From positions 27,030-91,029 of the forward strand of contig CALFWB010000059.1 of assembly GCA_937928795.1 (NCBI GenBank): a DNA stretch of 64,000 bases. Direction: 5' to 3'. The position numbers and the translations under genes are program-made. This stretch comes from an uncultured Anaerolineales bacterium (GTDB lineage Bacteria; Chloroflexota; Anaerolineae; Anaerolineales; UBA4823). Position 1 is the first letter of the stretch. Each line of letters opens with the position of its first letter. A model generated the notes under the pieces. That model was not told where the DNA came from, made no database searches, and saw only the letters and a program-made list of their open reading frames with translations. This document shows positions 5,326-46,469 of this stretch, piece by piece.

Positions 5326-6337
5326 GGCTAGCGCCGTTTGTGCCACGTTCGATCTCCTCCATGCTTTTGCCGACCAGGTCAACGAAAACATCCTCCAGAG
5401 TAGGTTCGCGTTTTTGCAGGTTAATAATGCGCACTTGGTTTTCCGTCAAGGTATTAACCACAGCGGCAAGAGTTTCATCTCGGTCGAGGATGAGATCAAG
5501 GATTGCGTAGCCATCGCGGGGCTTGACACCGAATTTGCGAACTCCATGGATGGATTGAAGGTGTTGGGGATAAGGACTCGTGACTTGACTGACTTCCAGA
5601 TGGTAAATGGCTTCGCGCTGCAGACGGTACTTTAGTGACGCGGGTGTGTCACAAGCCAAGACGCGCCCCTTGTTGATAATGGCGACTCGGTCGCATAATT
5701 CTTCAGCTTCTGCCATGTAATGGGTGGTTAGAAGGATGGTGCGTTCTGGGTGTTCATCTAGCCATTGGCGGATAAAGCGGCGCACATCTCGGGATGCGCC
5801 AACATCCAAGCCCAGGGTAGGTTCGTCCAGAAATAAGACTTGCGGGTCGGTGAGAAAGCCGCGCACGATATTCATCTTTTGGCGCAAGCCGGTTGATAAA
5901 TCCGAGGATTTGGTATTTATCCGATCGGCTAAGCCAACGATCTCGAGGAGTTGGGCAATGCGCCGATTAGCCTCTTTGGAGCTGAGTCCATAGAATTGAG
6001 CAAACATCCAGAGGTTTTCGCGCACGGTGAGCAAACCGTATCCGGAAGATTCCCCGCCAGAGACCATGTTGATGATCGGTCGAATTTTATGCGCTTCCTT
6101 AACCACGTCATAGCCGCAGACAAGAGCGGTTCCGCTAGTAGGCGCAAGTAGGGTGGTTAGGATCTTAATCAACGTCGTCTTCCCGGCGCCGTTCGGGCCA
6201 AGCAAGCCAAACAATTCCCCTTGATGAACCTCTAAGGAGACATCCTGCAGAGCAACTAATTGTTTAGCAGTGCTCTTCTTGCTGCCACGAATTTTGTAAA
6301 CGCGACCGAGATGATTGGTTTGAATTGCAAAATTCAT
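5312..6337 (-). CDS. ABC transporter ATP-binding protein
   Basis: Walker A GPNGAGKTT, signature LSTGLRQK, Walker B VLFLDEPTLGLD. Confidence 0.95.
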   Translation of the reverse strand: MNFAIQTNHLGRVYKIRGSKKSTAKQLVALQDVSLEVHQGELFGLLGPNGAGKTTLIKILTTLLAPTSGTALVCGYDVVKEAHKIRPIINMVSGGESSGYGLLTVRENLWMFAQFYGLSSKEANRRIAQLLEIVGLADRINTKSSDLSTGLRQKMNIVRGFLTDPQVLFLDEPTLGLDVGASRDVRRFIRQWLDEHPERTILLTTHYMAEAEELCDRVAIINKGRVLACDTPASLKYRLQREAIYHLEVSQVTSPYPQHLQSIHGVRKFGVKPRDGYAILDLILDRDETLAAVVNTLTENQVRIINLQKREPTLEDVFVDLVGKSMEEIERGTNGASHAES

Positions 6338-19992: not shown

Positions 19993-20063
19993 GCGCAGGG
20001 CATCTCCTTTCCTAGTGGAGAGTATATCCTAGTTTCTTAACCTGTCAATGTATTCTTTGCCCT

Positions 20064-20141
20064 GTGTGCACTCAAAAGTTGTTGGCAACATTGCTTTGTA
20101 GGACAACTCATTGAGTTGTCCTACAACTTTTGCGTGGACAC
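20064..20141 (+). mobile_element. MITE-like element, copy 1
   Basis: 78 bp GTGTGCACTCAAAAGTTGT...ACAACTTTTGCGTGGACAC; TIRs 17/19; flanked by CTTTGCCCT at 20055..20063 and 20141..20149 (8-9 bp duplication); contains 29-bp palindrome TGTAGGACAACTCATTGAGTTGTCCTACA. Confidence 0.85.
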
Positions 20142-20165
20142 TTTGCCCTTTAGCATAAAGGCAGA

Positions 20166-20194
20166 TAAACATCTCTTTGTACACGTGCTATAAT
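20166..20194 (+). promoter_or_regulatory. Candidate sigma70-type promoter for acyl-CoA dehydrogenase gene
   Basis: TAAACA - 17 bp - TATAAT, about 40 bp upstream of the ATG at 20236. Confidence 0.45.
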
Positions 20195-44346: not shown

Positions 44347-44528
44347 CTTCCAGAGTCGAAAATGGGAAGTTGGAACGTAACCGTTTGTAGGCTTGCTAAT
44401 GTAGCTTTTACCGAGGTTAGCTCGCTTGTTGATTCGCAGTTAGACACTCGCGCTTCTTGCACCTATTGAGCATACTCTGCGGTTGAATTGAGTGTAGCCT
44501 AAAAGGACGGAAAACGCAATAAGACCAA

Positions 44529-44606
44529 GTATCCACGCAAAAGTTGTAGGATAACTCAATGGGTTGTCCTACAAAGCAATGTTGCCAACAACTTTTGAGT
44601 GCACAC
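44529..44606 (-). mobile_element. MITE-like element, copy 2
   Basis: Reverse complement is 75/78 identical to 20064..20141; flanked by an exact 9-bp duplication TAAGACCAA (44520..44528 and 44607..44615). Confidence 0.88.
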
Positions 44607-44782
44607 TAAGACCAATTGCGTTTTGACTCAAACCACAGTGTGATTTATACTTATTGATGTGGGCTGCGCTATTTAGGAAGTGTGCAACCCTCTACATTTT
44701 TGCCTCACTCACGTTATACTAAAGACGGGTTAGGTTTATATCGTTGAGTCAAATTTATCTGTTCTAAGAGGAGGAACGTGTG

Positions 44783-46357
44783 ATGCAAGAACAATTCAAG
44801 CTGACCTATGCCACCATGTTTAATCCCCCAGAAGAACTTCATCTTCGTTTTGATGAAGCTCTCCAAAGAGTGAAAGTGAATTTAGGAAAAGAATACGGTT
44901 TATTAATTAACAATCAAGATCACTTTACTGATGAAAAAGTTGAGGATCGTTCACCCGTCAATACGGATATTGTCCTAGGAGTCTTTCAAAAAGGTGGAGT
45001 TGCCGAAGCGCAGGCAGCCTTAAAAGCAGCTCGCACAGCTTTTCCAAGCTGGAGCCGTCTACCCTGGCAGGAACGGGTGAATACCCTGCGCAAAGTAGCT
45101 GACACAATTGACCAAAGGATTTTTGACATTGCCGCTGCTTTGTGCATGGAAGTTGGGAAAAACCGTATGGAGGCACTTGGGGATGTCGCCGAGACGGCCG
45201 ACTTGATTCGCTACGCCTGTGACCAAATGGAGAAAAACAATGGCTATATTGTCCAAATGGGCAGCGATCCGCTAGTTGGGTATAAGGCGACCAATTTCTC
45301 GGTTTTACGCCCCTATGGTGTTTGGTTGGTAATCAGTCCGTTTAACTTCCCGAGCGCGCTGAGTGGTGGTCCGATGGGAGCTGCTCTCGTTACGGGCAAT
45401 ACCGTGGTCATCAAGCCGGCTTCGGATACTCCTTGGACAGTGCGCCTATTGGCTGAGTGCTTTCGCGATGCCGGTTTGCCAGAGGGAGTTTGCAACTATG
45501 TTACCGGACCGGGGAGCACTTTGGGACAAGCCTTGATTGAAAGCGATCTTGTGGATGGTATTACCTTTACGGGTTCCTATGATGTTGGCATGAAAATTTA
45601 TCGCGATTTTGCTCAAGGTCGCTATGTGCGCCCGATTATCTTAGAGTTGGGAGGGAAAAATCCAGCCATTGTCAGCCGCAATGCTGATCTGGAACGAGCG
45701 GCGATTGGGATTGTGCGCTCGGCGTTTGGGTTACAAGGACAGAAGTGCTCGGCTTGCTCACGGGTTTATGTTGAGGAGCCGGTTTATGACGAATTGGTCA
45801 ATCGCTTGGTTGAGCTGACCGAGAAGTTAGCTATCGGTGATCCAACGGATCGGAAGGTCTATTTGGGGCCTGTGATCAACCAAAAAGCTTATCAGGATTA
45901 TCAACACTATGCCGAGGAACTCTCTCAGGCGGGTACGATACTAACCGGTGGGAAAATTTTGACCGAAGGCGATTATGGGAAAGGCTACTTTTGTGCTCCT
46001 ACGTTGGTAGCGGACTTGCCGTTGGAACATCGTCTATGGAAGCACGAAATGTTTTTGCCCATTACAACGATTGCAAAAGTTAATTCGTTGGAACAAGCCA
46101 TGCAACTAGCCAACGATGTGGACTATGGGCTCACCGCCGGTTTCTACGGGACAAAAGAAGAGGCTCAATGGTTCTTCGATCAGATTCAAGCCGGGGTTAC
46201 GTATGCCAACCGTCCGCAAGGCGCTACAACCGGTGCATGGCCGGGTTATCAGCCTTTCGGAGGTTGGAAAGCCAGCGGTTCAACGGGCAAGAATGCTGGC
46301 GGGTTATATTACTTGCCTTTATATCTGCATGAACAAATTCAAACGCTCATTGAATGA
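44783..46357 (+). CDS. Aldehyde dehydrogenase family protein (1-pyrroline-5-carboxylate dehydrogenase-like)
   Basis: ATG of GTGATG chosen. ISPFNFPSALSGGPMGAALVTGNTVVIKPA; FTGSYDVG; LELGGKNPAIV; GQKCSACSRVYV. Confidence 0.92.
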   Translation: MQEQFKLTYATMFNPPEELHLRFDEALQRVKVNLGKEYGLLINNQDHFTDEKVEDRSPVNTDIVLGVFQKGGVAEAQAALKAARTAFPSWSRLPWQERVNTLRKVADTIDQRIFDIAAALCMEVGKNRMEALGDVAETADLIRYACDQMEKNNGYIVQMGSDPLVGYKATNFSVLRPYGVWLVISPFNFPSALSGGPMGAALVTGNTVVIKPASDTPWTVRLLAECFRDAGLPEGVCNYVTGPGSTLGQALIESDLVDGITFTGSYDVGMKIYRDFAQGRYVRPIILELGGKNPAIVSRNADLERAAIGIVRSAFGLQGQKCSACSRVYVEEPVYDELVNRLVELTEKLAIGDPTDRKVYLGPVINQKAYQDYQHYAEELSQAGTILTGGKILTEGDYGKGYFCAPTLVADLPLEHRLWKHEMFLPITTIAKVNSLEQAMQLANDVDYGLTAGFYGTKEEAQWFFDQIQAGVTYANRPQGATTGAWPGYQPFGGWKASGSTGKNAGGLYYLPLYLHEQIQTLIE

Positions 46358-46376
46358 AGCCCTTAGCGGTTTGCTC

Positions 46377-46408
46377 TTGTAGGACAACTCCTTGGAGTTG
46401 TCCTACAA
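46377..46408. repeat. Solo copy of the MITE core palindrome, possible terminator
   Basis: TTGTAGGACAACTCC-TT-GGAGTTGTCCTACAA: perfect 15-bp stem, 20 bp after the ALDH stop. Confidence 0.75.
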
Positions 46409-46469
46409 CCTTAGCTTGTTTTTGGGCTTGATGGTAGAATGCAGGTCTAAAGGAGTGTCCAAGCAGTAG

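Follow-up and report, generated by a model that had tools for sequence, protein, structure and literature searches.

A recently amplified MITE of 78 bp, present in more than 100 copies in the genome of an uncultured Anaerolineales bacterium, is inserted in register with predicted sigma70/A promoters. It is very probably a non-autonomous derivative of the ISKra4 group (prokaryotic Mutator-like, p-MULT 4) that inserts just upstream of promoters of this class. The genome examined is a 3.29-Mb draft in 128 contigs with 93% completeness. Two copies lie in the window, which is the whole stretch of 64,000 nucleotides analyzed here.

Structure of the element

Copy 1 occupies positions 20064 to 20141 (plus strand) and, on comparison, equals the family consensus. 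Its left TIR, GTGTGCACTCAAAAGTTGT (20064 to 20082, plus strand), is the end that usually lies toward the promoter, and its right TIR is GTGTCCACGCAAAAGTTGT (20123 to 20141, minus strand). The two are mismatched at 2 of 19 positions, in agreement with the earlier note, which had described a 78-bp element with TIRs matching at 17 of 19 positions and a perfect 29-nt palindrome inside it. The palindrome is present at 20097 to 20125, where it shares 3 nt with the right TIR and has one centre base, T or A depending on the copy. The duplicated target of 8 bp, TTTGCCCT, flanks the element at 20056 to 20063 and again at 20142 to 20149. Of the two boundaries that had been considered for this copy, 78 bp with an 8-bp duplication was retained, since 111 of the 112 full-length copies of the family run from GTGT to ACAC over exactly 78 bp, with the duplications abutting these ends; the reading as 77 bp with 9 bp arises from a one-base coincidence. 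Copy 2 is located at 44529 to 44606 on the minus strand, between 9-bp duplications TAAGACCAA (44520 to 44528 and 44607 to 44615).

Four end-like sites were found in the window against 0.03 expected. Across the genome, the left-end pattern with up to 3 mismatches, right ends included in the count, gave 219 matches, and the reversed-pattern control gave 0. Together, these counts exclude a chance origin of the element ends.

As single-stranded DNA, the 29-nt palindrome could form a strong hairpin (computed z of approximately −6.7). It is not a canonical terminator: when the sequence was read by eye, no T-run followed the hairpin on either strand, and the intrinsic terminator reading was discarded. 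An RNA element was also considered and discarded after an Rfam search returned no match. Among the 111 copies compared, the centre base (window position 20111) reads T in 74 copies and A in another 36, and every other column departs from the consensus in at most 10 copies. Both centre states occur inside groups of copies sharing other variants, which suggests that the palindrome centre was flipped repeatedly by hairpin template switching. A related palindrome (TTGTAGGACAACTCC-TT-GGAGTTGTCCTACAA), this one without TIRs, is found at 46371 to 46418, just past the stop of a 525-aa ORF ending at 46357.

Copy number, age, and distribution

Reading the stretches around known matches yielded 112 distinct full-length copies, all but one exactly 78 bp long, together with about 10 truncated ones. 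A further full-length copy, flanked by a duplication of its own (AATCCTCT), lies outside this set at G000:C25:2552. Divergent copies may be missed by this procedure. The duplications are perfect in 62 of the 112 copies, with lengths of 8 bp (28 copies), 9 bp (33 copies), and 10 bp (1 copy). Outside the palindrome centre the copies differ from the consensus at a mean of only 1.4 positions, and 28 of 111 show no difference, which indicates that the amplification is recent. The element is short and non-coding, has TIRs, a constant length, many copies, and target duplications, and has paralogous empty sites (see below), as is characteristic of MITEs.

No matching copy was found in the 60 relatives searched, no match was obtained in a plasmid search, and an exact match to the 37-nt core was absent from other sequenced species. 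One genome of the same genus contains a diverged relic that shares the layout of the MITE (L235; alignment score of 77 versus a shuffled maximum of 46), showing that the family predates its expansion here.

The truncated copies break near the palindrome edges or within the palindrome, lacking either the left part (L070, L144, and L157) or the right part (L026, L101, and L130). Other repeats are also present in this genome. A repeat of about 82 bp (CAGCCTGTGTTG...CATAGGCT) forms tandem arrays (L097, 1011 to 1345; L036, 1029 to 1282; L014, 1188 to 1433), and one of its units is interrupted by an insertion of the MITE. Further dispersed repeats (TCTGGCGGTCCAGCAATTCTAAATTTGAACAT; GTGTCACTTCAAGC...) adjoin copies in the right flanks of L068, L153, and L130 and in the flanks of L107, L129, and L148, and one MITE copy seems to have been duplicated along with such a neighbor.

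Empty sites

The flanks of each copy were joined and compared with the recovered DNA of the same genome. Paralogous repeats without the element align over the junction with no gap and with the target present once. Over 102 bp, the copy on C23 is 91% identical to its empty site (L121); for the second copy on C116 (L124), the match to L097 is 94% over 90 bp. Single-target empty sites and further copies with duplicated flanks, both of which the earlier note had named as checks, were therefore located, the latter in numbers above 100 in the genome. When reconstructed, 13 of 111 empty sites fall inside open frames of at least 150 aa; most copies lie outside genes.

The orthologous locus of copy 1 gave a concordant picture. 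In same-genus genomes, too, gatC adjoins the acyl-CoA dehydrogenase gene, and the element is absent wherever the locus is readable, namely, from the four alignable intergenic regions (L305 to L308; L304 was left out of this comparison). The DNA upstream of the gatC −35 box has diverged within the genus and provides no base-exact orthologous empty site, for which reason the paralogous ones were used. A viral-contig search with the neighboring acyl-CoA dehydrogenase returned nothing informative.

Register with promoters

Promoters were predicted from sequence by scoring the −35 and −10 hexamers jointly, with offsets counted outward from each MITE end. In 26 of 111 copies, TTGAC begins 15 or 16 bp out from the left end, versus 0.18 expected (P = 2e-46), and TATAAT-like hexamers accumulate at offsets 38 to 40. 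A promoter score of at least 8.5 at offsets 15 to 17, on either side, was obtained for 66 of 111 copies, usually at the left end, compared with approximately 5 expected from control offsets. For scores of at least 10, the register accounts for 54 of 111 copies, where fewer than 1 is expected (control windows gave a mean of 0.3 per side). The peak is 1 to 3 bp wide with background to either side, and the register holds for both hexamers. Orientation is biased about 3:1, with the left end toward the promoter in 46 cases and the right end in 14 (P = 4e-5). About 40% of the copies have no above-threshold promoter at the register, and these may derive from decayed promoters, from promoters of other sigma factors, or from true off-target insertion.

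The distance to the −35 box follows the length of the duplication. With 8-bp duplications the distance is 15 in 12 of 17 cases, and with 9-bp duplications it is 16 in 18 of 23 (Fisher P = 4e-5). This places the promoter-side edge of the duplication 7 to 8 bp from the −35 hexamer and some 30 bp from the −10 hexamer. In promoter coordinates, the duplicated target spans approximately −51 to −43, the region contacted by the C-terminal domains of the polymerase alpha subunits.

Both window copies follow this pattern. The predicted gatC promoter has its −35 box, TTGACA, at 20043 to 20048 (minus strand), 15 bp beyond the left end of copy 1, and its −10 box, TATACT, at 20021 to 20026 (minus strand), with a spacer of 16. 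This TTGACA-16-TATACT arrangement is kept in three same-genus genomes that lack the element (G003, G004, and G005). For copy 2, the putative −35 box TTGACT is found at 44623 to 44628 (plus strand), 16 bp beyond its left end, followed after a spacer of 17 by a −10 box, TATACT, at 44646 to 44651, ahead of the 525-aa ORF at 44780. The earlier note had instead linked copy 1 to a TAAACA-17-TATAAT candidate for the acyl-CoA dehydrogenase gene. Those hexamers exist (20166 to 20171 and 20189 to 20194), and the −10 (GTGCTATAATCC), though not the −35, is conserved in four genomes of the same genus; the candidate is out of the MITE register. The base-pair register had been missed: the primary promoter for copy 1 is the conserved gatCAB promoter, on its opposite, left side.

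Relationship to ISKra4 elements

An end-pattern search across 400 genomes of the order gave matches in 47. Some of the ends pair into elements of 1,473 to 1,495 bp in other genomes of the order, nearly all with 8- to 9-bp duplications. The ends of these full-size elements read GTGTGCACGCAAA(A/G)G(T/A)TGTCA, and the MITE ends agree with those of the order's ISKra4 elements at 16 to 18 of 19 positions. A protein of about 463 aa in one full-size relative (L225) matches the ISKra4 transposase model NF033572 with E = 6e-67 and 226 bits, above the curated cut-off of 205; the shorter frame of L226 reaches 196 bits, just under it. In the flanks of such ends in 36 other genomes, a −10-like hexamer occurs at offset 38 to 40 in 30 of 118 cases, and each other offset accounts for at most 2. 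The promoters at these sites have a clear −10 and a weak −35. That the same register surrounds ISKra4-type ends in other genomes indicates that the rule belongs to the transposase group and not to one MITE.

Many genomes of the order contain further short elements with ISKra4-type ends, approximately 30 in all and 80 to 223 bp long, most of them flanked by 8- to 9-bp duplications (L210, L211, L212, L218, L223, L229, L232, L238, L239, L241, L268 to L270, L280 to L289, L295, and L296). They apparently form an undescribed group of ISKra4-derived MITEs.

No intact ISKra4 transposase was found in this assembly, nor did the family model detect one in the genus. The sole trace in this genome is at the end of contig C36, where a 37-aa match to the transposase C terminus (59% identity) accompanies a decayed end, GGGCGTACG.... 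Multicopy IS elements are often dropped from draft assemblies, and assembly loss and true absence of the transposase are equally possible. The ISKra4 link consequently draws on three shared features: the ends, the size of the duplication, and the target register. A transposase gene within near-identical ends, a further check named in the earlier note, was found in full-length elements of the order; in this genome, only the contig-end stub was recovered. Mobilization in trans, as proposed earlier for want of an internal ORF, is supported by the copies, the empty sites, and the transposase-bearing elements of the order with near-identical ends.

A left-end-like site on G000:C38 (L193) is followed by a 47-aa frame with no family, no relatives, and no recognizable transposase. 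Because the arrangement there (end, inverted repeat, ATG ...KYN) resembles that of the IS left end, the site was kept as a possible left-end remnant. The contig end (L193, approximately 5350 to 5560) resembles, by eye, an IS1-type transposase C terminus; it is unrelated to the MITE ends.

Mechanism and alternatives

We infer that an ISKra4 transposase is the mover of the MITE and that the register is due to an interaction with RNA polymerase or with the promoter complex, not to DNA sequence alone. An ISKra4-type transposase, supplied in trans, would bind the ends of about 19 bp and move the 78-bp unit. A staggered cut of 8 or 9 bp would be made directly upstream of a sigma70/A promoter, so that the target at about −51 to −43 is duplicated. 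The promoter-side cut would be fixed upstream of both hexamers, at 7 to 8 bp from the −35 and about 30 bp from the −10, and the extra base of the 9-bp duplication would come from the side distal to the promoter.

Alternatively, the transposase could read promoter DNA directly, from the hexamers or from DNA shape, without touching RNA polymerase. The register kept to both hexamers fits such reading, as does the lack of an obvious extra conserved base within the duplication; we consider it possible but doubtful, given the weak −35 boxes of the target promoters in other genomes and the transposase-polymerase contact proposed for TnGBS (PMC3942029), neither of which is decisive. A mobilizer from another family with 8- to 9-bp duplications, unrelated to ISKra4, is very improbable. 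The missing intact ISKra4 gene, the 8- to 9-bp duplications of IS256, and the IS1-like end on C38 could be cited for it, but IS256 elements have no promoter preference in the published survey (PMC3942029), the register is an ISKra4/ISLre2 signature, and the MITE has ends like those of the ISKra4 elements in the order, as given above; IS256- and IS1-type candidates were dropped once those elements turned up. Also very improbable is that selection replaces targeting, with broad intergenic insertion and survival near −51 of copies that are useful as an upstream regulatory module, or the loss of harmful ones elsewhere: few empty sites fall in long open frames, and a palindrome at constant upstream distance could serve as a binding site, but selection would not tie the −35 distance to duplication length base by base or yield so narrow a peak, MITEs with other interiors keep the same register in other genomes, and the same preference has been published for the ISKra4 and TnGBS/ISLre2 groups (PMC3942029).

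The MITE is best read as a parasite that targets safe sites, leaving the core promoter and the DNA up to about −51 intact. A short element can in this way spread in a compact genome without breaking core promoters. It is unlikely, though conceivable, that the dozens of unrelated promoters tagged at −51 have thereby gained a shared upstream element that alters or co-regulates them, and that ISKra4-derived MITEs have done likewise independently across the order; were this so, the shared element would consist of the MITE left end and the palindrome. The more than 60 natural insertions in one genome, in base-pair register, point to an anchored promoter-side cut with the duplication length taking up the slack. 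How such transposases find promoters, by polymerase contact or by DNA reading, is testable with a 78-bp substrate.

Comparison with known systems

A literature search of partial coverage, which does not prove priority, found no MITE of the ISKra4/ISLre2 groups and no MITE in register with promoters, and the consulted passages of a review on bacterial MITEs (PMC10969869) report no base-pair register with host promoters. Correia, ERIC, and MITEAba12 elements resemble the present MITE in being short, non-autonomous, and mostly intergenic, with TIRs and target duplications, and differ in their parent families and duplication sizes.

Targeting of this kind is known from full-size elements. Insertion 15 to 17 bp upstream of sigmaA −35 boxes, repeats of 8 to 9 bp, and an orientation set by end asymmetry were reported for TnGBS/ISLre2 and the ISKra4 group by Guerillot et al. 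(2014; PMC3942029), who also suggested contact with RNA polymerase. The TnGBS integrative conjugative elements and ISLre2 (p-MULT 3) share with the MITE this distance and a preferred end toward the promoter; however, they belong to another transposase lineage and are large or full-size elements, reported in streptococci and mainly Firmicutes.

The closest likeness is to the ISKra4 group (p-MULT 4; ISKra2/4/5/6, ISCasp2/3, and others). The group is recognized by direct repeats of 8 or 9 bp, which both the MITE and the full IS copies have; by inverted repeats of 18 to 39 bp with a conserved terminal cytosine, represented here by ends of about 19 bp that start with G and finish with C; and by insertion approximately 13 to 17 bp upstream of sigmaA −35 boxes, which the MITE shows relative to predicted promoters, at the fixed distance of about 15 to 17 bp seen in the group (PMC3942029). 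The group is further characterized by a conserved aspartate motif between the transposase domains N1 and N2 and by a circular transposition intermediate. Where their ends are similar, insertions of the group occur in both orientations (PMC3942029), and the MITE is likewise found both ways. Its full-size relatives carry the NF033572 transposase, whereas the MITE itself is gene-less, at 78 bp and over 100 copies, and shows a clear orientation bias that is not complete; the paper on the group makes no mention of MITEs (PMC3942029). Everything observed for the MITE agrees with the published targeting of ISKra4, TnGBS, and ISLre2. To this the MITE adds a miniature form and its copy number, the occurrence of this form as many derivatives within a single order, an orientation bias that is partial, and a promoter distance coupled to the length of the duplication.
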